Virus record (IMG/VR): IMGVR_UViG_3300021952_000030
Coordinates: 1 to 29,198 of that record
Strand: one strand, 5' to 3'
Length of the DNA: 29,198 nt
Source: a virus
Shown one piece after another: positions 409 to 13,330 of the stretch. A model generated the notes under the pieces. That model ran no database searches. It worked only from the letters and a program-made list of their open reading frames with translations, and was not told the DNA's origin. The first letter of the stretch is position 1. Each line of letters begins with the position of its first letter. A program made the translations under genes and the position numbers.

Positions 409-710
409 AGAAGTGATGGTTGAATATGTACTGCGAAAGTGTGCTTCTGCTGTTTGTTACCGATGATAGCGAAGATGCGTTTGCGGTGTTGTGAGCCTGA
501 ATAGCCTGGATGACATACGCAAGCGAATCGGCCGTCATTCCAGATGATCAGGTGGTTCCCGCCTTTGTCCTGGCCGGCCTCGTGACAGGCAGGGCACCGG
601 CCAACAAAGCCACCCGATTGTTTGCGGAGGTTACCGACAAGGTTGAGCTGGAGGCCTGGAATGCCGTGGTCGACCTGTGGGGCGGATGGGGCGGATATTT
701 TGAAACTCAT
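405..710 (-). CDS. CHC2-like primase zinc-finger protein
   Basis: A 101-residue protein with a zinc-binding pattern like the DNA primase CHC2 domain: C39-P-A-C42-H43, then after about 20 residues C64-V-C66-H67. In DnaG-type primases this domain recognises template DNA. Here it is a separate small protein directly downstream of the Prim-Pol/SF3 gene, which has no such finger, so it probably acts as its partner. The start ATG at 710 follows the leader TACAACCACA, an A/C-rich type seen at many genes here. Two iteron copies (677-696) lie inside codons 5-12, so protein and DNA signal overlap. Confidence 0.75.
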   Translation of the reverse strand: MSFKISAPSAPQVDHGIPGLQLNLVGNLRKQSGGFVGRCPACHEAGQDKGGNHLIIWNDGRFACVCHPGYSGSQHRKRIFAIIGNKQQKHTFAVHIQPSLL

Positions 711-853
711 TGTGGTTGTAGATGCAGGATAGTCGATTTTTAGGAGCCATTAAGAGTTGGAAATTGCCGCCCCATCCGCCCCACATTTCATTTTCGTCAA
801 TGCTGGCGGGCCTAAAGTGTGGGGCGGATCTTTTTCGTATCCGCCCCACATTT
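677..853. repeat. Iteron/dyad cluster, candidate replication origin
   Basis: Six copies of a GGGGCGGAT-type element lie within 175 bases, in both orientations. Plus orientation: 677-687 (GTGGGGCGGAT), 688-696 (GGGGCGGAT) and 819-829 (GTGGGGCGGAT). Inverted: 766-775 (one mismatch), 774-784 and 839-849. A 15-base string, ATCCGCCCCACATTT, is identical at 774-788 and 839-853. The cluster spans the start of the zinc-finger gene, the 146-base gap 711-856, and reaches the stop codon of the primase-helicase at 857. Repeated sites beside a P4-type primase-helicase suggest initiator binding, as at iteron origins. The role is inferred. Confidence 0.6.
815..853. promoter_or_regulatory. Perfect long hairpin after the primase-helicase stop
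   Basis: AAGTGTGGGGCGGAT (815-829) pairs with ATCCGCCCCACATTT (839-853): a 15-base stem with one G-T pair and a 9-base loop. It starts 4 bases past the stop codon of the 665-residue gene in its direction of transcription. No T-run follows on the minus strand, so it is not a textbook intrinsic terminator. Its arms are iteron copies, so a DNA-level role such as an initiator site or origin dyad is as likely as an RNA role. Confidence 0.55.
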
Positions 854-856
854 GGG

Positions 857-2854
857 TCATTCGAGGTCGTTACAGGCTTCATCGAGGCGGTAGAGCATGA
901 CGCGGAGGTAGCCGCGGGTGCCTGAATCGTCACGGTCGGATCGGTTCAAGTGCTTGGTCGGGATGGCCTGGTGGACCTCGAGCATGAGCTCGGCAGCACG
1001 CCGTTGGAACTTCTTCTCAGGCTCGGAGGCCCACTCCTTGTTGCCGCACATCTGCAGGTAGGCTTGGAACAGTTCCTCGGTGCTGATGCTGTCCGCGGCC
1101 ATGCTGGTCGGCTTGATATGGTTGGTGATGAAGTAGCGGATCGAGTCGCTTTCTGACAGAAGGCTGTCGATGCGTGCCCGCTGCTTGGTGGTCACCGGGA
1201 ACGATCGGCCTTGTTTCAATACACGCTGTAGTGATTCAGCACCGGAAAGGAACCAGTTGAGAATACCGGGCCCCTCTTTATCAATCATCACATCGTGATA
1301 GTTTGGTATCACAGTTGACGGCTTAGGCTGTGAGAAGTCTAGCAGCAGCAGGCGACGAGACCATGCGCCGAGATCGCCCTGAACATTGACCCTTAACTTG
1401 CTATTGGCTGTGACAATAACATTCCAGTCGCCGATCAGTGTCTTAACACCGTTGCGGTTCTTGAACTCTGCGATGATACGGTCGCCGCCGGTCATGGCCT
1501 TGAGGAAGCTCGAGCCTTCGCAGGATAGAAAGTCCGGGGCCACATCGGCGCCGATCAAGAGTGTCTTGTCATGGAACAGGCCGGCCTCGAAGCGGCCGCC
1601 CAGGTGGTTGGTGCGGAGCTCGGAGCAGTTTTCGTCGCCGACGAGGCGCCGGACGACGCCGGCCACCGTCGACTTGCCGCCGCCTCCGGTGCCGGTCAGC
1701 AGCAGGATGACCTGTGGCTGGTTGCGTTGCAGGAGGGCCAGGCCGCCCCAGTGCTGCAGCATGAGCTGGTCTTCGGCCTCGGGCAGAGCGTGATCGAGGA
1801 AGGCCTGCCACATCGGGCTGGTGGCGCCTTCGACGTAGCGGATGGGCGTCTGGTTCCGAGACATCCACTCCGGCGAGAAGCCGTGCATCCCGTAGGGCGT
1901 GACGCGCAGGTCGACCATGACGTTCTCGGTGTGGACGATGGCGTCGGGGCGGTTGAATGGCGCCCGCTCGACCTGGAGCTGGGCGGCCAGGTCGATGACA
2001 GCATTCGAGAACTGCGCGGTCAGCTTGGGCAGGAGGCTGCGCAGGTGGGGCGCTGCCTGGTCGGCGGCGTGGTCAAGGATGACCTTGCGGGCCATGGCCA
2101 GCACCCGCTGGCCGACTTCTTCACGGGTCATGGACTGCCATATGCCGCGGTCGGTCAGGTAGAAGTAGAAGCAGCCGGTGACGGTATCGAAGAGAATGCG
2201 TTCCTTGGCAGCCAGGTAGGCTGCGAAGAATGGCGCCTGCAGGGTGCCGTTGCCCTGCTTTGAGAACACCCAAGGGTCGCCGTGTTGTTGCAGTAGCTCG
2301 GCGATGGCCTCGTTCTCGCCGGGCACCGGCCAGCCTTCGGGCCAGCGGATCTGGGAGAAGTCTAGGGTGATCGGCGGGTTGTCGACCAGCACGGTGTACT
2401 CGCAGCCGGAGGGGTGGGTTCCCTTGACGGTCGAGAGGTTGCCGGTGCTGCGCCATTCGTAGAGGGGGCGCCCGAGTTGCCGGCCGTTGACCTCGACCAT
2501 CTCGGTCGTGCTGCGGGCCGAGGAAGGGCCCGGGTAGGGCCCAGAGATGCGCACACCGATCTGGGCGCCGCGGCGGCCTCTCCACCGGGCGGTGGTCTTC
2601 AGCTTCGGGTTGACGGCGAGGAAGGCCTCGAGGCTCTGGTCATCGTCGAAGTCGATGGCACAGAACCCGCCGGAGTGCTCGCCCAGGCGCACGGCGATGT
2701 TCCCGTGCTCGAGCAGGGCCTGATAGGTGGACGCCGCGGTGCTCTGCAGGGTGTGCTGGGTGTACTTGACGAGCGGCACCTTGGTGCCCGGCCGGCACGG
2801 CACCAGGAATAGCGGCGTGCCGAGCCATTGCTCGATCTCATGGGTGGACATCAT
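857..2854 (-). CDS. Prim-Pol / SF3 helicase (phage/P4-type primase-helicase)
   Basis: A 665-residue replication initiator. The N-terminal third resembles the archaeo-eukaryotic Prim-Pol domain: a basic GTKVPL stretch near 23-28, the acidic metal motif D68-F-D70, and a GTHPSG-Y segment near 145-153 typical of Prim-Pol. The C-terminal half is a D5/SF3 helicase: Walker A GTGGGGKS at 388-395, a Walker-B-like strand ending in IGAD near 434-437, and the SF3 sensor segment VTANS at 481-485. Such proteins prime DNA and unwind it as a hexamer at an origin. The gene starts with two ATGs 10 bases after the helicase stop. It lies next to the iteron cluster and a separate zinc finger, its likely site and partner. 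Confidence 0.9.
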   Translation of the reverse strand: MMSTHEIEQWLGTPLFLVPCRPGTKVPLVKYTQHTLQSTAASTYQALLEHGNIAVRLGEHSGGFCAIDFDDDQSLEAFLAVNPKLKTTARWRGRRGAQIGVRISGPYPGPSSARSTTEMVEVNGRQLGRPLYEWRSTGNLSTVKGTHPSGCEYTVLVDNPPITLDFSQIRWPEGWPVPGENEAIAELLQQHGDPWVFSKQGNGTLQAPFFAAYLAAKERILFDTVTGCFYFYLTDRGIWQSMTREEVGQRVLAMARKVILDHAADQAAPHLRSLLPKLTAQFSNAVIDLAAQLQVERAPFNRPDAIVHTENVMVDLRVTPYGMHGFSPEWMSRNQTPIRYVEGATSPMWQAFLDHALPEAEDQLMLQHWGGLALLQRNQPQVILLLTGTGGGGKSTVAGVVRRLVGDENCSELRTNHLGGRFEAGLFHDKTLLIGADVAPDFLSCEGSSFLKAMTGGDRIIAEFKNRNGVKTLIGDWNVIVTANSKLRVNVQGDLGAWSRRLLLLDFSQPKPSTVIPNYHDVMIDKEGPGILNWFLSGAESLQRVLKQGRSFPVTTKQRARIDSLLSESDSIRYFITNHIKPTSMAADSISTEELFQAYLQMCGNKEWASEPEKKFQRRAAELMLEVHQAIPTKHLNRSDRDDSGTRGYLRVMLYRLDEACNDLE

Positions 2855-2863
2855 ATCGGGAAA

Positions 2864-4135
2864 TCAGGTCAGCGGTTCGCGGCGTTCAAAGCGGATGGCC
2901 TCCTCGCTGATGAACCAGCCCTTGGGCCATTCCTTCAGGTGTAGTCCGCCCAGCGTCCTGACTCGGCTCAGGGCCACATAGCCTTGCCCAGGCTCTCGGG
3001 CCGCCCGGATGTCGATGTAGGCTGCGTCGAGAGTCAGGCCTTGGGCACGGTGTATCGTCATGGCGTAGGCGAGGCGGAGCGGATATTGCCACACGGTGAC
3101 GCCCAACGTCTCGAAAAACCATTTCCTTAACCCCACCGAAATCGTTTTTCCGCGGGTGTAGACGTCGATGGTTTCACCGCATTTGCCGGTCACGAACCCG
3201 ATCTGGCCATTGGCGAACCCGGCCTCCGCGTCATTCGCGGTGAACATCACGGCCGCCCCTATCTTGATCTGGAGCACCCGTGGCGTGCTCATGTTCTTGG
3301 TGGCGAAGTCGATGGCCTGTGCCACGCCTTTGGTGCGTGCCTCGACGGTGATCAGCTCGCCGGTGACGGTCTCGAGGCGGTAGCTGTTCCATTTGTCGAC
3401 CTGGGCGTTATGGGTCAGGAGGTGAGTGATCTCGGCCTTGGGGAACCAGGAGACGCGGGAGCGCAGCACGTCGGCGTCGGTCTTGGCCAGCTTACCGATT
3501 CGGAACCCGCTGAGTGCCTGGACAAACAGCCTGTCGTCCTGGCGCCGGACGGTCTCGAGCTTGATCGTCTTAAAGTCGGCCTCGGTCCAGGCATCGGAGC
3601 GGAAGGCCCAGTCGTAGGGCTTCGACTGGTCGATGCGCACCGGCGGTAGCTGTAGGAAGTCACCGAGCACGATCACCTGCAGCCCGCCGAACGGCCGGGC
3701 ATCATCTCGGAGCAGCTTCAGCCAGAAGTTGAGGAAATCGAATTGGCGCCCGGCCATCATGCTGATCTCGTCGATCACGAGGATCTCGGCTTCCTCGACC
3801 CGCTTACGGGCGTTGTGGATGGTTGGCTGATCGAACAGGCGTGTTGCGGCCTGGTCGAAGGTCTCGTTGTCGCCTGGCCCAAGCTGCATCCCGCACCAGC
3901 GGTGCACCGTGGTGCCTCCGATGTTGAGTGCTGCGATGCCTGTGGGGGCGGTGATGGCGACGTTCTTGGTGGTCTCGATCTGGTGCAGGAATTGCCGCAG
4001 CAGGTAGGACTTGCCGGTGCCGGCCTGCCCGGTCAGGAACACGTTCCCTCCGGTGGTCGCCCATGTGATGAACCGGGATTCTGGTGTGAACTCCGGGAAG
4101 TCGGTGTCGATAACCGGACAGGTGGCTGGTATCAT
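2864..4135 (-). CDS. Pif1/Dda-like SF1B DNA helicase
   Basis: A 423-residue ATPase of helicase superfamily 1B. Walker A is GQAGTGKS at 36-43, followed by TAPTGIAALNIGG-TTVH (motif Ia, 62-78), Walker B DE at 122-123, and motif III VLGDFLQLPPV near 155-165. The C-terminal end carries motifs V and VI as TIHRAQGLTLD and YVALSRV. Pif1-like helicases unwind DNA 5' to 3' and clear barriers ahead of replication; phage Dda is an example. The length suits a compact phage version without extra domains. Its start lies 1 base past the stop of the exonuclease gene, so the two are likely co-translated. Confidence 0.92.
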   Translation of the reverse strand: MIPATCPVIDTDFPEFTPESRFITWATTGGNVFLTGQAGTGKSYLLRQFLHQIETTKNVAITAPTGIAALNIGGTTVHRWCGMQLGPGDNETFDQAATRLFDQPTIHNARKRVEEAEILVIDEISMMAGRQFDFLNFWLKLLRDDARPFGGLQVIVLGDFLQLPPVRIDQSKPYDWAFRSDAWTEADFKTIKLETVRRQDDRLFVQALSGFRIGKLAKTDADVLRSRVSWFPKAEITHLLTHNAQVDKWNSYRLETVTGELITVEARTKGVAQAIDFATKNMSTPRVLQIKIGAAVMFTANDAEAGFANGQIGFVTGKCGETIDVYTRGKTISVGLRKWFFETLGVTVWQYPLRLAYAMTIHRAQGLTLDAAYIDIRAAREPGQGYVALSRVRTLGGLHLKEWPKGWFISEEAIRFERREPLT

Positions 4136-4136
4136 A

Positions 4137-4802
4137 TCAATAGAGCTCGGGGCAGAGCACGTCGTGCACCTTCTGCGTCAGCTCGACATCCTGCAGGGCG
4201 TAAGTGATGGCGGCGTCCCGATCCCGTAGCCACAGGTCGGAGAAATCGGCGCCGCTGCCTGTTTTCTCGCCGAGTTTCAGGTGCCGGCAGATTGCCGACA
4301 GGCTGCCGTGGGCCCGGTTGTCTCCAAGCTGCCAGATCTCCCGGAGGTCGACGATCAGGTCGTTCCAGTAACGGCCGTGCCGGAGCCAGTAAGGCGGCGT
4401 CACCCGGTGCTTCCAGGAGCGCTTGTAGAGGAATGGAAGATCGAAGGCCTTGGTGTTGAACCCGACCAGTCGGGGCTGGCGCTCGAACCCGGCAACGATC
4501 TTCCACCATTGCACCAGCATTTCCTTCTCGCCGTCGGCATCGGCGCACAGTACCCGGGCCTTCTCGCCGGGCACCTTGTATCCGATGCATAACACCTGGC
4601 CGCTCAAGGCATCGAGAGCTGCATTCTTGATGTAGTCGCTGACATGGTTCTCCTCGGCCTTCTGGATCTTCTCGGCGATCAGGTCGGGATTCTTGATGTT
4701 GCCGAGTTTGACCTGTGACGGGTCGAACGGCGGGATGACGAGTTCGGTCCGCGGTAACGGGCCGGTCTCGATGTCGAAGATGATGATGGGATTAGCGGGC
4801 AT
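4137..4802 (-). CDS. DEDDy 3'-5' exonuclease (DnaQ-like fold)
   Basis: A 221-residue nuclease. Exo I is FDIET with D10 and E12, exo II is GFNTKAFD with N116 and D121, and exo III is Y201-A-L-Q-D205, making it the DEDDy type found in DNA polymerase proofreading domains and stand-alone phage exonucleases. I chose the ATG at 4802, which follows the leader TTTCACACCATTACT; a longer reading would need a TTG and adds no conserved sequence. There is no polymerase domain in the ORF. It could proofread for the Prim-Pol or the host polymerase, or process ends. The 78 bases upstream (4803-4880) hold two GCGCATC copies and no visible gene. Confidence 0.88.
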   Translation of the reverse strand: MPANPIIIFDIETGPLPRTELVIPPFDPSQVKLGNIKNPDLIAEKIQKAEENHVSDYIKNAALDALSGQVLCIGYKVPGEKARVLCADADGEKEMLVQWWKIVAGFERQPRLVGFNTKAFDLPFLYKRSWKHRVTPPYWLRHGRYWNDLIVDLREIWQLGDNRAHGSLSAICRHLKLGEKTGSGADFSDLWLRDRDAAITYALQDVELTQKVHDVLCPELY

Positions 4803-4880
4803 AGTAATGGTGTGAAATGTGGAAAGTGTGATGCGCGTTTGTCCGCCGATGCGCGCCCCCGGCAAAGAACCATGAGTCCT

Positions 4881-5282
4881 TCAGCAACGGGCTGAAGAAA
4901 GTGTCTTGCCGCAGTGCGGGCAGATGCTGAGCTGGTACACGGGCTCGACGCCCAGCCAGTCGCAGATCTCGTGATATGTCTTCACACCGAAATTGGCAAC
5001 ACAGCCTGGCCGGATGTGGCCTTTGTTGAAGAGATCGAGAGCCTCGTCACGATTGCGGATGCCGATGGCCTCGATGAACCCGAGGCACCGGACGGTGAAT
5101 GGATAGCCCCACTCGGCCATGATGGCCTCGCGCCGGCCGTACTCCCGGAGGATCTGGTCGATGCGCTGCTTGGTCAGATTGAACCGAGCGGCGATCTGAT
5201 GCAGCTTGAGCCCTTCGTTGCGTAGCGCCAGCACCTGCGGGATCAGCTCGTCGGTCTTCTGCTGTGGTTTGCGTCCAGCCAT
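4881..5282 (-). CDS. HTH + RNA polymerase alpha-CTD-like protein with C-terminal Cys cluster
   Basis: A 133-residue protein with three parts. Residues 24-48 form a helix-turn-helix (LKLHQIAARFNLTKQRIDQIL), like a resolvase or sigma region 4 helix pair. Residues 60-113 read like the helix-hairpin-helix C-terminal domain of RNA polymerase alpha: FTVRCLGFIEAIGI, then a GHIRPG turn, then NFGVKTYHEICDWLG, which parallels the alpha motif of NFG-K-S-EI-L. Residues 121-133 (CPHC and a terminal C) may bind metal. The family resemblance comes from reading the sequence, not from a search. It could contact promoters or host polymerase. The start ATG has the leader TGATCACACA. Confidence 0.7.
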   Translation of the reverse strand: MAGRKPQQKTDELIPQVLALRNEGLKLHQIAARFNLTKQRIDQILREYGRREAIMAEWGYPFTVRCLGFIEAIGIRNRDEALDLFNKGHIRPGCVANFGVKTYHEICDWLGVEPVYQLSICPHCGKTLSSARC

Positions 5283-5289
5283 TGTGTGA

Positions 5290-6060
5290 TCAGTAAGGGA
5301 TTTCGTCGGAATCCTGATCAGCCGCCTCGGTGGCGAACTTGGCCTGATACCAGTCGAGCGCCTTGATCAGCCGGCGGTCGTCCGCGGTGGTTTTCTCCTG
5401 AGCCTTGGTCTTTGGCAGCCAGTGCTCGATGAGGGCTCCGATGGCTTCCTCGGTCATCTCGCGCAGCTCGACGCCCTTGTGCTTGCCGACGTGCACCTTG
5501 GTCTTCGAGAGATCGGTCTCCTCCTGGTTGTCTTGGCTGCCCGAGGTCTTCCGGTAGCTGGTGTCGCTGCCTTCGGTGGCCTGCGTGCTGCCGTCCTTGG
5601 CCGGCCTGTCCTGCAAGCGCACCCACAGGCCCGAGGCCTGCAGAGCCTCACCGGTCTTGTGCGGCGTGATGAGCTTGATGTTGGCGAACGTCTTGGACCC
5701 GTCCTGGCTCTGCTCGTGGACGATGACGACATTGGCCGGGCGCCCGATGAGCTGGTCGAGATCGAGGCTGCTGGTCTCCTGATCGGTGAGTTTGCGCCCG
5801 AACCAATCGCGCAGGAACTTGGTCAGGCCCGCCTTCTCGTGAAGGCTCGGTGTCATGGGGGCGGTCATGACCACCCAGGGCTGTGCCGGGTTACGGCTTT
5901 TGTCGATGAGATCGAGCTCGAAGGCGATCTTGAACTTCTCCTTGGTGCCGTACTGCGTTTCGTAGGGCTTGAGCGGCGTGATATCCACGCATACAGCGCG
6001 GCCATTGTATTCGGGGCACGGGGCGTAATCCTTGCCACCTGTTTTTCCACTTACGATCAT
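5290..6060 (-). CDS. SSB-like single-stranded DNA-binding protein
   Basis: A 256-residue protein. Residues 15-135 look like a phage OB-fold ssDNA-binding domain of alternating strands, with a central WVVMTAPMTPSLHEKAGLTKFL helix insert. Residues 150-185 are a Ser/Thr/Gln-rich linker. Residues 189-240 hold a KVHVGKHKG motif with helices, resembling the small GKYKG domain found after some exonucleases (DUF3820-like). The last residues DSDEIPY copy the acidic tip ending in P-aromatic through which bacterial SSB recruits partners. It lies within the replication genes. The assignment rests on architecture, not on a catalytic motif. Confidence 0.72.
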   Translation of the reverse strand: MIVSGKTGGKDYAPCPEYNGRAVCVDITPLKPYETQYGTKEKFKIAFELDLIDKSRNPAQPWVVMTAPMTPSLHEKAGLTKFLRDWFGRKLTDQETSSLDLDQLIGRPANVVIVHEQSQDGSKTFANIKLITPHKTGEALQASGLWVRLQDRPAKDGSTQATEGSDTSYRKTSGSQDNQEETDLSKTKVHVGKHKGVELREMTEEAIGALIEHWLPKTKAQEKTTADDRRLIKALDWYQAKFATEAADQDSDEIPY

Positions 6061-6093
6061 GTTTTCGTCTTACGTTGTGTTGTTGTTGTTGTG

Positions 6094-6288
6094 TTATTTC
6101 GAGGCTTTCTCGACCTCGGAAAGTTGTTGTGCCATACGGGCGTAGTTCGCCCAGTAGTCCGGGAAGGCATCCCGCAGCTTCTTCAGGTTCACAGGGTCTG
6201 CAGCCAGTGCCGCGGCGCCCAAGGCACGCACGAAGCTGCCGCCGTACTCCTGCATCGTCCTGGCCACATCTCGGTCGGTGACGTTCAC
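6094..6288 (-). CDS. Small conserved-looking phage protein
   Basis: A 64-residue protein starting with GTG that overlaps the previous stop as GTGA; AAAGGG sits 6 bases upstream. It is helical, with a core of VNLKKLRDAFPDYWANYARM and a Gly-Gly-Ala-rich segment before it. This shape recurs in small early phage proteins, but I cannot name a function. No catalytic or metal motif is visible. Position between the small-gene cluster and the SSB suggests an early role. Confidence 0.7.
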   Translation of the reverse strand: MNVTDRDVARTMQEYGGSFVRALGAAALAADPVNLKKLRDAFPDYWANYARMAQQLSEVEKASK

Positions 6289-6434
6289 TTGGTTCCCTTT
6301 CCGCGTTTGCGCGTCCAGTAGGACGTGTATTCCATCTTCTTGGCCTTGCTGGCCGCCACGATCTCGGTGATCTCGCCCTTGCGGAAGCGGTAATGGCCTG
6401 TGCCTTCGTGTCTAAGTTTGTCTGCTCGGTTCAT
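6285..6434 (-). CDS. Small basic protein, unknown function
   Basis: A 49-residue ORF beginning MNRADKLRHEGTGHYRFRKG and ending WTRKRGKGTK. It overlaps both neighbours by 4 bases (ATGA upstream, GTGA downstream), which is strong context evidence that it is translated. It is highly basic and may bind nucleic acid. No domain recognised. Confidence 0.65.
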   Translation of the reverse strand: MNRADKLRHEGTGHYRFRKGEITEIVAASKAKKMEYTSYWTRKRGKGTK

Positions 6435-6649
6435 ACCTTCTCTGTGAGTGATCGGATGTATCGGTTCCGTTCCTTCGGTTTGACGTTGATGAGGTATTGG
6501 ATGGCCATACAGGCGTTGATGCTGGCGGTGTGTTCCCAGTCCTCCTTCTTGTCGTAGTACTCATGCCACCGCTCGCTGGGTGCTACGATGACTTGTCCTG
6601 TCTTCTTGTTTTTGAACACGAATGCGGCGGGGCCGATGGGTACGTTCAT
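6431..6649 (-). CDS. Hypothetical protein
   Basis: A 72-residue protein. The ATG at 6649 overlaps the stop of the zinc-ribbon ORF (ATGA) and has GAGG 5 bases upstream, which is why I reject the longer upstream reading that would run through that ORF. The centre contains SERWHEYYDKKEDWEHTAS and ends in a basic KPKERNRYIRS segment. No recognised family. Confidence 0.68.
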   Translation of the reverse strand: MNVPIGPAAFVFKNKKTGQVIVAPSERWHEYYDKKEDWEHTASINACMAIQYLINVKPKERNRYIRSLTEKV

Positions 6650-6759
6650 ATCTTCCTCACCTTCTCCCGATGCTTGCATATCGTGCAGACGTAGGTTTTT
6701 CCGCTCTTGGAGATGACAGCCACTCGGAAGCATCGCTCGCATTGGATGGTATCGCTCAC
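6646..6759 (-). CDS. Tiny zinc-ribbon protein (37 residues)
   Basis: A 37-residue ORF starting with GTG that overlaps the preceding stop (GTGA) with GGAGA 7 bases upstream, and whose stop overlaps the next ATG. It holds two CxxC pairs, C7-E-R-C10 and C25-T-I-C28, spaced 14 residues apart, the pattern of a minimal zinc ribbon. The rest is basic. It may bind DNA or RNA polymerase; no function is known to me. Its length is below most gene-calling limits. Confidence 0.7.
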   Translation of the reverse strand: MSDTIQCERCFRVAVISKSGKTYVCTICKHREKVRKI

Positions 6760-7022
6760 GGATTTGTCTCCACTCGTTCACGCCCGAGAGCCTCACGCGC
6801 ATCGTCTCGGACGTAGTTGTTCACGGCGTAGCCCAGATCCTCCGGATCTAGGAATCGGTTGATGAATGACTCAGTTCGATTGATCTGATCCATGTAATGC
6901 TTCCGCTCACCTTCGAGCTTGTCCCACAGAGCGCGGAGACGGTTTTCGAGTTCGGTGACGTACTTTTCGCGTTCTCTCAAAGAGTTCTGAAGCGATTCAA
7001 TTTCCTGAAGATGCAAGCTCAC
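6756..7022 (-). CDS. Coiled-coil protein
   Basis: An 88-residue protein beginning at a GTG that shares GTGA with the preceding stop, with AAGGAGG 7 bases upstream (7030-7036). Residues 1-50 are a heptad-rich coiled coil (LQEIESLQNSLREREKYVTE onwards). The C-terminal part LDPEDLGYAVNNYVRDDA may be a small helical domain. It follows two related coiled-coil ORFs and may multimerise with them. Function unknown. Confidence 0.68.
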   Translation of the reverse strand: MSLHLQEIESLQNSLREREKYVTELENRLRALWDKLEGERKHYMDQINRTESFINRFLDPEDLGYAVNNYVRDDAREALGRERVETNP

Positions 7023-7317
7023 GGCTTGGCCTCCTTCCGTTTGGACCTTTTGGCTTTGCGAAAAGAAACGTAGAACTGAACCCATTCAGGCGTATCTTTC
7101 AGCCTGAATCCATTCACGTTCCATCGCTCGCTGCGAGCGCCTTCGACGATTTCCATCAGCGCATCTCCCGTCTCCTCCAGCCGATTGATGCGGGCCTTTG
7201 CTTCGTTCAACTCGTACTCCATCCGAGTGCATTCTTCCGCCATTGCCATGTGATGGCAGACATCTTTTAGACGGGCTGCGTCAGTCCTAGGGTATTTGCT
7301 CACGGCTTGGCCTCCTT
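7017..7317. repeat. 20-base direct repeat carrying stop, GTG start and Shine-Dalgarno
   Basis: GCTCACGGCTTGGCCTCCTT occurs at 7017-7036 and again at 7298-7317. On the minus strand each copy encodes the C-terminal KEAKP and stop of one gene, while AAGGAGG in the same bases serves as the ribosome binding site of the next gene, which begins at the overlapping GTG. The pair marks a tandem duplication of the gene junction. Confidence 0.8.
7019..7303 (-). CDS. Coiled-coil protein, relative of the next upstream gene
   Basis: A 94-residue protein starting at GTG (7303), with AAGGAGG at 7311-7317. It begins MSKYPRTDAARLKDV, matching the MSDTPRTN start of the upstream gene, and shares the YELNEAKARINRLE heptads. 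Its second half (WNVNGFRLKDTPEWVQFYVS) is different, and the end is very basic, finishing RKEAKP. The last five codons double as the Shine-Dalgarno for the following gene. Function unknown. Confidence 0.7.
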   Translation of the reverse strand: MSKYPRTDAARLKDVCHHMAMAEECTRMEYELNEAKARINRLEETGDALMEIVEGARSERWNVNGFRLKDTPEWVQFYVSFRKAKRSKRKEAKP

Positions 7318-7584
7318 CTCACTCCACAGCAGCAGATCAGCGCGGAGTGCGTCGTTCTCGGATTCGAGTTGGTTGATGCGCTGGTTGGCTTCGTTTAGTT
7401 CCTCTTTCGCCTTGTCCACTCCACGCTTCTCCGCTGTCGTCATCAGTTCATGTTGAAGACTGATTGTTTTGTTGGCTTCGTTGAGTTCGCGTTCGAGTTG
7501 GCGGCAGAAGTCGGCATCACAAACCTGATACATTGATTCATGCGGAAAGAATGCTTCGAGATTTGTCCTCGGTGTATCGCTCAT
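7300..7584 (-). CDS. Coiled-coil protein of the SDTPRT type
   Basis: A 94-residue protein; the ATG at 7584 overlaps the upstream stop (ATGA) and GGAGGAGG lies 4 bases before it. It starts MSDTPRTN, a start seen in many small phage proteins, then runs as coiled coil with two ELNEAN repeats (REL-NEANKTI and EEL-NEANQRINQLE) and ends EKEAKP. It is related to the next downstream gene. Function unknown. Confidence 0.7.
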   Translation of the reverse strand: MSDTPRTNLEAFFPHESMYQVCDADFCRQLERELNEANKTISLQHELMTTAEKRGVDKAKEELNEANQRINQLESENDALRADLLLWSEKEAKP

Positions 7585-7775
7585 TTCGCCTCCTCCACCT
7601 TCACCATCGGAACAAAATCCAGACTGTTGCTCTCGTCGATTGCGATGCCCCAGTTGTTCCTTCGGCAGCACAGCTCGGTTGCGTTGTAGACCTCCATCAT
7701 CGTCTTCTCGGGCAGGTAGATGGACAGCAGTCCTTTGAACGTGAGACGTACAGTCTCTGAGTTGTTATCGCTCAT
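7581..7775 (-). CDS. Hypothetical protein
   Basis: A 64-residue protein starting MSDNNSETVRLTFKGLLSIY. The ATG overlaps the stop of the resolvase gene (ATGA) and GGAGGG lies 6 bases upstream. Strand-helix pattern with a CC pair in the middle; no family recognised. Its last codons (EEAK) form the Shine-Dalgarno of the next gene. Confidence 0.68.
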   Translation of the reverse strand: MSDNNSETVRLTFKGLLSIYLPEKTMMEVYNATELCCRRNNWGIAIDESNSLDFVPMVKVEEAK

Positions 7776-8227
7776 TTCAGTCCCTCCGACAGCATCGCGT
7801 GCTCCAGGATGAGCACCGCATCCGCCGTCTTCAGTGTGATGTTGAGGCTAGGCTGCCGCTGCTGCGCCAAACCCTTCAGGTGGGCCTTCCAGCGCGTTCC
7901 ATGGGTCTTGCTGGTGCCAGCCCCTATCGTCTTCTGCCAGCGCTGTGGCGGCACCTCGATGCACCTGGTGAGCATCGAAGCTATCAGGCCGTGGATGAAC
8001 CCTACGTTGCGGCCGAACTGGAACATAGCGCTTCCAGGTGCTCCCTTGCCTCCGATGTATCCGCCCACCTTCTCGATGTAGCATACATCCGACTGCGACA
8101 GGTAGTTGATCAACACCTCCCGGACGTCACCGTCAGTAGATGGCATGGGCTCCAGTGTGACCCGGCCGTTGGCGACGTGCGCCAGGCCTCCGGAAAGGCC
8201 GGGGTCTATTGCAAGGATTCTTTTCAC
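7772..8227 (-). CDS. RuvC-like Holliday-junction resolvase
   Basis: A 151-residue RNase H-fold nuclease. The opening strand ILAIDPGLSGG carries D8, the second acidic residue is E52 in CYIEKVGG, and the C-terminal acid is D136 in TADAVLILEHA. The EVPPQRWQK segment before a Gly/Ser/Lys loop is typical of phage RuvC-like resolvases. These cut branched DNA so that replicated concatemers can be packaged. I start it at the GTG at 8227: AAGGAGG lies 8 bases upstream and the GTG overlaps the previous stop (GTGA). An in-frame ATG at 8248 has neither feature. Confidence 0.88.
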   Translation of the reverse strand: MKRILAIDPGLSGGLAHVANGRVTLEPMPSTDGDVREVLINYLSQSDVCYIEKVGGYIGGKGAPGSAMFQFGRNVGFIHGLIASMLTRCIEVPPQRWQKTIGAGTSKTHGTRWKAHLKGLAQQRQPSLNITLKTADAVLILEHAMLSEGLK

Positions 8228-8361
8228 TTGGCGTTCCTCCTTAGCCACGCCTTGATCGCCTGCTCGGTGACGGCACCAACCTTCAGGCCTGCAGCCTTGC
8301 AGTAGTCGCGCAGCGTTTTGTGGATCTCTGGGTTCACGTTGATTGTCTTGGTTTTACTCAT
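8224..8361 (-). CDS. Small ribbon-helix-helix DNA-binding protein
   Basis: A 45-residue protein fitting the Arc/CopG ribbon-helix-helix: a short strand KTKTINVNPE, then helix EIHKTLRDYCKAAG, a turn LKVG, and a second helix AVTEQAIKAWLRR. Such proteins bind operators as dimers through the strand and often repress their own operon. The ATG overlaps the endolysin stop (ATGA). It heads the small coupled early cluster, so a repressor role is possible. Confidence 0.8.
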   Translation of the reverse strand: MSKTKTINVNPEIHKTLRDYCKAAGLKVGAVTEQAIKAWLRRNAK

Positions 8362-8690
8362 TTGAGATGCTTCCGGACCTTGTTCCAGTAGGCCTCGGTG
8401 GCCTGCTTCTTGTCGCCAGACGGGCCGCCATTCCAACGACGGGCGAGCTGCTCGGTGCTGGCTCCGCGGCCGTAGTGCTGCAGGTAGGCCTCACACACCG
8501 CCCGGGCCTGCGCACGGTTCGTCATGTCCTGGTGCCGGTAGTGGCTGCCGGTGATCCGGTTTACATCGAGCACAACGGCCTTGTGGATCTGCAGCGGCCC
8601 GATGGCCTTGCCGTTGTCGCCGATGGCCATGTCGTTTCCTGAGCTTTCGACGATGATCAGGGCGCTGATGAGGTTGGAGATGGTGGTCAT
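8358..8690 (-). CDS. Short lysozyme / lytic transglycosylase endolysin
   Basis: A 110-residue protein of the SLT/lysozyme fold. It opens directly with the catalytic helix ISALIIVESSGND (the Glu of VES), followed by IGDNGKAIGPLQIHKAV, and ends with the GASTEQLARRWNGGP motif of goose-type and SLT domains. It would cleave peptidoglycan at the end of infection. No signal peptide is visible, so it would need a holin; the candidate holins are 11 kb away. I start it at ATG 8690 (leader CACTCTCCAAACC). An in-frame ATG at 8783 would add 31 Pro/Arg/Thr-rich residues and cannot be excluded. Confidence 0.85.
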   Translation of the reverse strand: MTTISNLISALIIVESSGNDMAIGDNGKAIGPLQIHKAVVLDVNRITGSHYRHQDMTNRAQARAVCEAYLQHYGRGASTEQLARRWNGGPSGDKKQATEAYWNKVRKHLK

Positions 8691-8795
8691 GGTTTGGAGA
8701 GTGTTGCGCGTTGTTGAACCAGTCGCGCCCCTGGTGCCGGACTTCCTCACCGGCGGGATGGGCGGTTTATGGGGCACCGCCATGCCCTAAAGTGA

Positions 8796-8984
8796 TCAGG
8801 ACCAAACCGGGCGGCCTGAGACGATGTACGGGGCAGCAGCGTCTTTGACAGCTTGCTCGTAAACCCAGTTGTGCTTGGCCAGCAGGTTGGATGCAACCTC
8901 AGCAGCTTGGAACTTGCTCAGTCCGGCCTTGGGGAAGTTGTAAACCGCCTCGGTGATCTTGGAGAGTTTGTTTTGCTTGCTCAT
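8796..8984 (-). CDS. Hypothetical small helical protein
   Basis: A 62-residue protein, MSKQNKLSKITEAVYNF onwards, mostly helical with a C-terminal PYIVSGRPVW. I start at ATG 8984, whose leader GATCAACACC matches the A/C-rich type seen elsewhere; an upstream ATG at 9023 gives 13 more residues. It is the first gene after an AT-rich gap with a possible promoter. No family recognised. Confidence 0.6.
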   Translation of the reverse strand: MSKQNKLSKITEAVYNFPKAGLSKFQAAEVASNLLAKHNWVYEQAVKDAAAPYIVSGRPVWS

Positions 8985-9041
8985 GGTGTTGATCTCGTTG
9001 ACGGGATCAATCTGCACCATCACCCAAACACCTGCAACACA

Positions 9042-10528: not shown

Positions 10529-13330
10529 TCAGGATGCCAGCTCATTCGGCAGTCGCAGGTCGACGTACCGGATGGTTTCGTATCGCTGCTCGTTGGCAAC
10601 GGTGTCGAAGTAGCTCGAGACTTGGCGCCGCTCACCGTCGCTGAAGTTGCGCAGGGTATCGTATCCAGTCGGCAGCACCGGAGTGGATTCATTCGGCTGG
10701 CCATTCTCGGTGTCGAAGTTCCATGCGGTGAAGTTCTGGCTGTCGGAATAGGTGGCGAGGTTCACCGCGGGCACATACCAGTAGTCGTTACCGCCGGCGT
10801 CCTGGTCACGGTAGCAGACCACGCCGTTGGCGATCAGGAGATCGTAGGCCTGCTCGGAGATGTAGAACGACGGGATGGTGCCGCCGGATTCGCGCCCGGA
10901 TGTCCCGAGCAGCACCATGTCAATGGTCAGCACTCCGAGCACCCGAGCGCTGCCGCTAGCGTCGAATAGAGGGCATGAGCCTTTCCCGAGGCAAAGCGGT
11001 ACAGCCCTCGTCCAGGCCCGCACCGACCATTCCAGCAGGTTCCAGAGCCATGGCGACTTCGGGATCTTGTGGAAGAACGGGCCGCCTCCGGGCAGGTATG
11101 GATTGCCGACCTCGTTGTATGGCAGATCGAACCCGACCTGCTCGACGCCGCCTGTCCAGCAGATGTGCGTCATGTTATCGCGGTATGGCGGCGAGTAGGT
11201 CGACGATTTGAACGGCACGCTCGAGGCGAACGAGGCGCCACGGCCGTCCTTGAAGATGTCATCCCGCTGGGCTGGCACAAGGTCGACAAACGAGCTGTTG
11301 TCGGCTGTCGGGATGTAGGCGTACTGCTGCGTTCTATTGGGGCTGCCCGGGATCCGCACCGAGGCGTCAATGCCTCCGGGTCCGCCCCACTTGTTCAGCC
11401 AGAAGTCGGCGCCCCACGGCCTGTCATCAACGCCACCGCCGGACGCCATGTTGATCTCGTAGGTGCGCACCTGCTCAAAGTCGTAGATCGAGCTGGAGAA
11501 TCCCCAAGGCCCTCCTGCCGGGATGTAGGCCGTGTTGACTGCCTGCACACCGGATCCCGGCACAGGATTCATGGCGGGCAGCACGTTGCCCCATTGCTGG
11601 CTCGGGTAGGTTCCAGCGACCTGCAGGTAGAAGATGTGCGTGCCGGATGTGTACCGGGTATTGAACCATGGACCGACTCCGAATCCGATGGGCCGGTCGG
11701 CAATGTAGAGGCTTTCGTTGTCCGCGGTGGTCTCGAAGTTGTTCAACAGGCTGCCGCCGATACCTGTGGCCGTTGCTGCGCGGCACATCAGCCCCATCGG
11801 CGTCATGCTGACCACCGAAACCTTCTCCTCCACGATATCGACGGCATCGGTGTAGGTGTTGAGGAAGCCAACCTCGACGGCGATTTTTCGCCGCAGGTTG
11901 CGCATGGTGTCGAAAATGGTCGGCTCGTTTCCAGCGTCCCAGGTGTATGTGCCTGGCCCGGTGATCGGATCCATGCCCTTGCAATACTGCACAGGGTAAA
12001 CCGTCGAGATCGTCTTCACGCTGGCGTCGATTTCCCAGTATGGATCGGTCGTGGTGGTGAAAATGTTGGCGTCGATAGGATAGATGCGGATGACGCCACG
12101 CTGCGTGGTCACCTGCATCCCGGTGGCCGTGACGTTCACGTCCATGCCAAGATCCCGCAGCCGGTCGACTAGGCTGGTCGTGCCGTTGAAGATTCGGATC
12201 TGATCGGAGACGACATCCCCGGCCGCATTGCTGAATGTCACCCGGGCACGGCCCCAAGTGAACACGGCATCCCCGATGGTCGTATTGGCATCGGTCGGGT
12301 CGGCGTAAACTCCGGTGTACACCTGCCGCGGATCGTAGGGGATGAACGGGTCGTGCACCGCACTCATCGTCCGGCGCCACTCAAACAGGATGAACGGATT
12401 TGCCACGTTGTTGGCCTGGGCGGATCGCTCGAGGCTCAGGAACTCCGACTGCGTGGCGGTGTCGGACCATGACGGCGGCCCCTCTGCGAGGAACGGGATG
12501 TCGCCGGTGAAGTACGGGAAGAAGTAGCGGCAGAAGGTTCCACCCGGGAATGTCACCGCCCAGGTGCCGTCAGGCTTGCGCCGGAAAGCCCTGCAGGAGC
12601 CCGCGGAAACGAATTGGCGGTCTGCACTACCATCGGGCAGTTGCAACAGCACCACGGCCGATCTGGTGCCGCAGTTATGCACCCGCCAGCAATCGTAGCG
12701 CTGGTATGTGCGCAGGATGCGGAACTCGTAGATGCCCTCGAGCGCAATCTCAGCCACCGCCAGCCGGTGCTTGTGGGTGCGCCCAGGAGGCAGTGTCGGA
12801 TCAATGCCGGCGCCGAGGCTTCCGCGGACATAGGACGTCAGGCCCGAGGTCGACGGAGGATCCCACCCGAGATGTACGTCGTACTGGATCCCGGCCACCT
12901 CGCGCTTCAGCAGCTCGAAGCTGTAATGGATATCGGCGACGTCACAGGTGAACGGGTCGCCACCGGCCACCCAATGGTCGACGTAGGCCTGTCCGCCTTC
13001 GACGTCGAGGTGCTTGGTCTCGAGCTTCGACAGCTCGACCTGTGTCTGGATCTGGTTGTGGTTGTCCCGCCAGTTGTAGCCAATGCCGGGTATGTACGGC
13101 AGCGGCGATTCACCACCATCCCGCAGTCGTTTGCAGGTGTCCGGGTCGTTGCGGTAGACGTACCAGACACCGTATGGGTACTGGCCACGCCATACACCGG
13201 AGGCGGAGTCTGCGAACAACGGGCTTTTGCCGTTGAGCACTCGGTGGCATTTCTGGTCGAAACGGGAATAGAGGCTGTTCAGGTTCGACGCCGTGAACAT
13301 CTTCTCCCGCTTGTCTACGGCGAAAGGCAT
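10529..13330 (-). CDS. Large tail-tip / baseplate protein candidate
   Basis: A 933-residue protein, the largest in the genome. It is beta-rich and full of aromatic and Gly/Asn/Asp turns, with about a dozen Cys scattered. I see no peptidase, lysozyme or pectate-lyase motif and no coiled coil. Its place, last in the tail module after tape measure and small tail proteins, is where siphophages encode the tail tip, hub or host-recognition protein. Start ATG 10 bases... is 9 bases past the upstream stop. It ends abutting the convergent plus-strand gene. Function is from position, so moderate confidence. Confidence 0.6.
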   Translation of the reverse strand: MPFAVDKREKMFTASNLNSLYSRFDQKCHRVLNGKSPLFADSASGVWRGQYPYGVWYVYRNDPDTCKRLRDGGESPLPYIPGIGYNWRDNHNQIQTQVELSKLETKHLDVEGGQAYVDHWVAGGDPFTCDVADIHYSFELLKREVAGIQYDVHLGWDPPSTSGLTSYVRGSLGAGIDPTLPPGRTHKHRLAVAEIALEGIYEFRILRTYQRYDCWRVHNCGTRSAVVLLQLPDGSADRQFVSAGSCRAFRRKPDGTWAVTFPGGTFCRYFFPYFTGDIPFLAEGPPSWSDTATQSEFLSLERSAQANNVANPFILFEWRRTMSAVHDPFIPYDPRQVYTGVYADPTDANTTIGDAVFTWGRARVTFSNAAGDVVSDQIRIFNGTTSLVDRLRDLGMDVNVTATGMQVTTQRGVIRIYPIDANIFTTTTDPYWEIDASVKTISTVYPVQYCKGMDPITGPGTYTWDAGNEPTIFDTMRNLRRKIAVEVGFLNTYTDAVDIVEEKVSVVSMTPMGLMCRAATATGIGGSLLNNFETTADNESLYIADRPIGFGVGPWFNTRYTSGTHIFYLQVAGTYPSQQWGNVLPAMNPVPGSGVQAVNTAYIPAGGPWGFSSSIYDFEQVRTYEINMASGGGVDDRPWGADFWLNKWGGPGGIDASVRIPGSPNRTQQYAYIPTADNSSFVDLVPAQRDDIFKDGRGASFASSVPFKSSTYSPPYRDNMTHICWTGGVEQVGFDLPYNEVGNPYLPGGGPFFHKIPKSPWLWNLLEWSVRAWTRAVPLCLGKGSCPLFDASGSARVLGVLTIDMVLLGTSGRESGGTIPSFYISEQAYDLLIANGVVCYRDQDAGGNDYWYVPAVNLATYSDSQNFTAWNFDTENGQPNESTPVLPTGYDTLRNFSDGERRQVSSYFDTVANEQRYETIRYVDLRLPNELAS

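Follow-up and report, generated by a model that had tools for sequence, protein, structure and literature searches.

The stretch of DNA analysed here, referred to below as the window, is the whole of the 29,198-bp virus record IMGVR_UViG_3300021952_000030, a tailed-phage fragment that encodes its own capsid and packaging proteins (a gpA-type large terminase, a portal, a head protease, and tail proteins). The locus under study comprises three genes on the minus strand: a 665-residue primase-helicase, which is the proposed initiator (857–2854), a small zinc-finger protein with a CPxC...CxC pattern (405–710) and, in the same gene run, a small helix-turn-helix protein (31–408) whose helix-turn-helix matches are weak and fall below the cut-offs. 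Following the primase-helicase gene in the same direction, positions 2864–4865 encode a Dda/PIF1-like helicase and a DNA-polymerase-B-like exonuclease; of the window proteins searched, none was recognised as a DNA polymerase. Elsewhere in the window, AT skew is strongly negative (to −0.35) over a run of small open reading frames (ORFs) at about 5000–9000, and a 933-residue ORF at 10529–13330 gave no Pfam or PHROGs match at E 0.001.

The 665-residue protein matches the Pfam families PF09250 (Prim-Pol, an archaeo-eukaryotic-type [AEP] primase), PF08706 (D5_N), and DUF5906 (SF3 helicase), with a match to the P4-family primase_Cterm just below the cut-off. A profile search gives the primase-helicase of SaPI5 (7ola, E 7.5e-11) as the nearest relative of known structure, and a fold search with the whole model returned AsfvPrimPol and 7ola; the full-length model is modest (pLDDT 65), and only the model of the C-terminal domain is used as an argument below. 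That domain (residues about 556–654; 893–1189, minus strand), the proposed reader of the repeats described in the next section, is modelled as a winged helix (pLDDT 80), the nearest solved fold being the RFX DNA-binding domain (1dp7; Foldseek prob 1.00, E 0.018), which belongs to a eukaryotic transcription factor and, at 12% identity, resembles the C-terminal domain in fold only. In the models, the wing begins with residues T633, K634, and H635 (codons at 950–958, minus strand), directly after the recognition helix. The zinc-finger protein, whose ORF is kept downstream of the primase gene in relatives, matches no Pfam family at 1e-3 and has weak similarity to phage primase-helicases; from this similarity, its CPxC...CxC pattern, and its position, we guess that it may represent a primase zinc finger that has become detached.

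An inverted pair of tandem repeats beside the primase-helicase gene

A repeat cluster (677–853) lies between the stop codon of the primase-helicase gene (857) and the start of the zinc-finger gene, with two of its copies (679–696) inside the zinc-finger ORF, as the initial annotation had placed it. The six copies counted there are real: the 9-mer GGGGCGGAT occurs exactly five times, at 679 and 688 on the plus strand, 774 on the minus strand, 821 on the plus strand, and 839 on the minus strand, and a sixth element, GGGGCGG at 767 on the minus strand, reads on as GGGGCGGCA in tandem with the 774 copy, all six falling within 679–847. Counting the 9-mer over all 29,198 bp, a check that had been proposed along with the cluster, yielded no further exact copy outside it. 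When up to one mismatch is allowed, the window holds 16 matches against 12.3 expected, that is, no enrichment, and the signal is therefore the exact, ordered cluster. Across 15 shuffles, the highest count of any 9-mer within 180 nt was four, short of the five seen here.

Both the 15-nt exact direct repeat (774–788 and 839–853) and the 15-nt stem (815–829/839–853, 93% complementary) described at the outset are present. The strongest feature of the cluster is a larger inverted repeat, 676–700 with 761–785, whose two 25-nt arms (92% complementary, with 60 nt between them) each consist of a tandem 9-bp doublet. Doublet A (GGGGCGGAT GGGGCGGAT, 679–696, plus strand) is made of exact matches and, read on the minus strand, encodes the N-terminus of the zinc-finger protein; doublet B (GGGGCGGAT GGGGCGGCA, 765–782, minus strand) is inverted with respect to doublet A and noncoding. 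This is the only site in the window with an inverted pair of tandem 9-bp doublets, and such a pair appeared in 0 of 40 shuffles. The core of the cluster can be described as inverted 9-bp doublets with 60–70 nt between them, directly 3′ of the primase-helicase gene. The spacer between the doublets (697–764) is AT-richer than its surroundings (AT 0.65 vs. 0.42 locally, measured between 19-nt arms) and is a candidate melting region. On the primase side, an accessory inverted pair of single units (815–853, with 821–829 on the plus strand and 839–847 on the minus strand around a 9-nt loop) adjoins the primase stop.

Layout and letters in relatives and known replicons

The viral relatives compared comprise 37 distinct regions downstream of the primase, plus L138 and L169. 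Throughout the viral relatives read, an inverted doublet repeat follows the primase stop, and its letters vary: relatives at 98–99% identity carry GGGGCGGAT, L008 and L055 (80–81% primase identity) carry GGCACACAA GTCACACAT, those at ~70% identity are mostly of the GGGACGG type (with GGTACGGAT in L036 and GAGACGGAT in L138), and L169 (60% identity) carries GGGACGGTT GTGACA. Both arms have switched from the GGGACGG to the GGGGCGG type in L021 and L022, and the accessory pair recurs in L008 and L055 with different letters. The N-terminal peptide of the zinc-finger protein tracks the repeat (SAPSAPQ, VPSVPN, VTSVPH, VTCVPH). Four relatives of 37–40 kb contain the doublet exactly twice, once per strand and solely at this place, and in each of the ten lineages measured the spacer has a higher AT content than the sequence around it, although only marginally in L036. 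Loss of the cluster in relatives that keep the primase-helicase had been named as a finding that would speak against an origin; the letters of GGGGCGGAT are indeed absent at 80% identity, but another repeat stands in the same place with an equal inverted-doublet layout. The group of L011 and L044 has further repeats that are unlike the 9-bp doublets and lie outside them, namely a tandem 10-bp GTCAAGCGTT 5–40 nt after the primase stop and CGCTTGAC about 30 nt beyond the second arm.

Searched with the window protein as the sole query, the genomes gave no relatives; an alignment query returned four Verrucomicrobiota or unclassified metagenome-assembled genome (MAG) loci at 36–39% identity. Inverted doublets recur in Verrucomicrobiota genomes with GGGACGCTT, CGGACGCTT, CATACGCTT, TGGACG, and AGGACG. 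An iteron caller run blind made calls downstream of the gene in 47 of 218 loci, compared with 1 of 215 gene bodies and 8 of 1060 shuffles, and no call in about three quarters of the distant loci. The units fit a 9-bp N3-RCR-N3 pattern, mostly N3-ACG-[CG]-N-T. The position of the pair is not fixed: in L179 and L181 it lies about 275–340 nt or more after the primase stop, and in six Verrucomicrobiota loci (L199, L207, L211, L280, L282, and L283) iterons are upstream, not downstream, of the primase gene. Two Verrucomicrobiota MAGs (G030 and G031) have three and five primase matches per genome, on separate contigs and with differing iterons, which suggests that several replicons coexist in one genome.

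The satellite islands of staphylococci and their kin offer a close comparison. The origins of phage-inducible chromosomal islands (PICIs) have two iteron sets around an AT-rich region 3′ of rep (PMC6092414), and the SaPI Rep protein is reported to recognise its origin by the C-terminal domain (PMC7581432). The window site likewise lies directly 3′ of a D5/SF3 primase-helicase gene (stop 857; cluster 677–853) and has two iteron sets (679–696 and 765–782) flanking an AT-rich stretch (0.65 vs. 0.42); the initiator has the architecture of SaPI5 7ola, and its C-terminal domain would be the reader here as well. The window is nevertheless a phage with capsid and packaging genes rather than a satellite, and so is not itself a PICI. 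In the staphylococcal PICI that we looked at, the 9-bp tandem units are AAGACACAT, with letters that differ from those of the window, and their orientation with respect to the spacer is the opposite of that in the window. A 40-kb stretch of E. coli CFT073 considered as a Gram-negative PICI for comparison proved to contain a lambdoid prophage instead and was set aside.

An experimentally defined origin with a similar layout is that of the plasmid pRN1, a 100-bp element (stem 21 nt, loop 58 nt) located 54 bp after the initiator gene, which is essential and sufficient in cis for replication and works when moved, and which its authors describe as a stem-loop without iteron structure (PMC4234260). 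When the sequence just after orf904 (L220) is read in 9-bp units, however, the arms are tandem repeats, TGGACACTA TGGACATAA, and those of pRN2 (L221, about 60–157) are likewise tandem 9-bp CGGACCGAT AGGACAGGA. The pRN1 family and the window have the same kind of initiator (PF09250 Prim-Pol, SF3 helicase, winged helix), and the dimensions are close: inverted arms of about 21–25 nt with a spacer of 57–60 nt downstream of the gene in the plasmids, and 25-nt arms with a 60-nt interval in the window. As among the window's relatives, the letters are unconserved in the family and the layout is kept. pRN1 differs in being an archaeal (Sulfolobus) plasmid, and its units, like those of the PICI, face away from the spacer, whereas those of the window and of pRN2 face toward it.

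Among phages, a stem-loop 3′ of the BIP-1 primase gene has been proposed as an origin (PMC4234260). We find inverted CAAACGAGG 9-bp doublets 463–572 nt after the primase stop of this Bordetella phage (L219) and inverted GCCACGGGT 9-bp doublets 481–635 nt after that of Gordonia phage GMA4 (L223), whose primase has only about 23–26% similarity to the window primase. Mycobacteriophage Amelie (L225) carries AGCACAGAT in many copies 43–300 nt after the primase stop, and in Javan626 (L224) what looks like an 8-bp version, GTTACGTA, lies no more than about 250 nt from the stop. The initial annotation had compared the locus with P4. Like the window protein, P4 alpha combines primase, SF3 helicase, and C-terminal winged helix in a single initiator that binds repeated sites (PMC4234260), and the idea of an origin is supported; the assignment to the P4 type is not, because the N-terminal domain of the window protein is an AEP Prim-Pol (PF09250) and that of P4 alpha a Toprim primase, which makes the match to SaPI/PICI and pRN1 the closer one.

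Covariation of iteron bases with wing residues

Iterons were called blind to the wing residues, and a mutual-information scan was then run over the columns of the C-terminal domain. Residue 635 is the top column for base 1 of the iteron (z 8.3 in the 26 rows called blind and 15.6 in 41 rows), as is residue 634 for base 3 (z 6.1 and 11.7, respectively), and across the wing start, residues 633–635 covary with iteron bases 1–4. Across 52 rows, an acidic residue at 635 agrees with C at base 1 in 51, the exception being L291, and T or R at 634 agrees with A at base 2, again in 51, with L138 as the exception. Among phages, base 4 is G in all seven distinct cases with K634 and A in all 41 with N634; E634 is found with GGCACA. 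Sister loci differ accordingly in both partners: L195 has RTD with CATACGCTT and L196 RND with CGGACGCTT, and L234 has SND with CGG and L232 SHS with GGG. For a pair test, we built a tree without the trait columns and took pairs on supported branches; the independent pairs changed in the same direction in 3/4 and 5/5 cases and never in the opposite one, numbers that are too few for significance on their own.

Applied to newly fetched loci, the rule gave 17 right calls out of 18 at nine loci with iterons, one of which has E for D at 635. The unit predicted from the wing is present upstream of the gene in L199, L207, and L211; the predicted unit or doublet was not found in L194 or L200. Because base 1 can be G, T, or C when residue 635 is N, the code is incomplete. 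Since the letters of the repeat change together with two primase residues across dozens of relatives, the primase-helicase very probably reads its repeat site itself, with a preference that is partly predictable from sequence. Wing W1 of RFX touches the DNA in the major groove (PMC2533330), in agreement with where the covarying residues 634 and 635 lie. On balance, we lean toward a broader proposal, that a widespread class of primase-helicases found in phages and Verrucomicrobiota mobile elements, and by layout in PICIs and pRN-type archaeal plasmids, reads 9-bp N3-RCR-N3 iterons through an RFX-like wing, with a simple and partly predictive code in which an acidic residue 635 would specify C1 and S, G, K, or H at 635 G1, T or R at 634 would specify A2T3 and N or H at 634 G2G3, and K634 versus N634 would select G4 versus A4.

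The cluster as a candidate replication origin

The comparisons above have strengthened the origin interpretation of the initial annotation, with a layout that is kept in relatives and a repeat that changes together with two winged-helix residues, and we consider it highly likely that this tailed phage starts its replication at the cluster, an origin of the kind found in SaPIs, PICIs, and pRN1, bound by the phage's own Prim-Pol/SF3 helicase via the wing. In the mechanism that we propose, the primase-helicase would use the wing of its C-terminal winged helix to bind the tandem 9-bp iterons, and each of the two opposed doublets would seat one assembling helicase ring, the two flanking the AT-richer spacer; the strands would open in the spacer, the primase domain would lay the first primers there, and the neighbouring zinc-finger protein would possibly assist in priming. 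Direct binding, ring loading, melting, and priming are steps that we infer from the protein families concerned, and the role of the zinc-finger protein is inferred as well. GC skew turns at the site in two relatives, G039 (at about 17.4 kb) and G041 (at about 35 kb), as a cumulative maximum, a terminus-like polarity that is the reverse of the one at bacterial origins; in G039, large ORFs on both sides of the site run in one direction. There is no turn at the site in the closer relatives G033 and G034, and in the window the site sits at the left end.

The main alternative is a purely regulatory site, at which the primase-helicase would bind for downstream transcription control or partition while replication starts elsewhere. 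The repeats overlap the start of the zinc-finger gene, the iterons of L199, L207, L211, L280, and L283 have an operator-like place upstream of the primase, and covariation tells who binds and not for what purpose. Against this, the layout equals that of the experimentally defined origins of pRN1 and PICIs, the spacer is AT-richer, the 37–40 kb relatives have a single paired site per genome, and no sigma-70-like promoter was found at the site; we regard a regulatory site as unlikely. Much less probable still is that another protein reads the iterons, either the small helix-turn-helix protein (31–408), which is encoded beside the site, or a host factor, and that the primase only co-evolves with that reader: the top columns for bases 1 and 3 are adjacent wing residues of the primase's own DNA-binding domain, sister proteins that differ at these residues differ in iteron, and a host factor would not vary between primases within one phylum.

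The complementary arms could also act in RNA, as the stem of a hairpin between the primase and zinc-finger genes that controls translation or termination. The transcript does fold strongly (z −7.7) with the zinc-finger start codon in the loop, and the arms remain complementary as their letters change. A hairpin has no need of a tandem 9-bp repeat in its stem, however; G-U pairs are no commoner than A-C mismatches (6 vs. 7 in ten lineages), the pair lies about 275–340 nt or more past the stop in L179 and L181 and upstream of the gene in others, and the covariation with a DNA-binding wing would be left unexplained. Rfam gave no match in the window at the family gathering score, and a scan for an intrinsic terminator at the 815–853 hairpin, whose tail reads ACTTTAGG, found none. 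We therefore hold an RNA element to be very unlikely. The least credence of all goes to chance or an artefact in which the Ser-Ala-Pro repeat of the zinc-finger protein creates the DNA repeats. One arm is coding, its encoded peptide recurs in altered form in relatives (VPSVPN, VTSVPH, VTCVPH), and a 17-mer from the site is also found in unrelated contigs; yet the noncoding second arm and the accessory pair change in step with the coding arm, the inverted pair is absent from all 40 shuffles, and the unrelated viral contigs that contain the 17-mer lack inverted copies of it, 1 of 28 records having a D5_N gene. On these grounds we rejected GGGGCGGATGGGGCGGA as a general motif and take its matches in those contigs as chance hits.

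If the cluster is an origin read through the wing, as we propose, the iterons of SaPIs and PICIs, the stem-loop of pRN1, and the stem-loops of phages, which have been described separately so far, would be united as one inverted-iteron layout. The stem-loop origin of pRN1 would then be an inverted iteron pair and not a folded hairpin, and iteron motifs are here proposed where the motifs recognised in pRN1 had been left as "not yet identified" (PMC4234260); the proposal would also help to explain how related replicons, pRN1 and pRN2 among them, coexist without initiating each other. With the residues that apparently read the iterons named, the specificity of a replicon would become partly predictable from sequence, and automatic origin finding in uncultured phages and mobile elements could follow.
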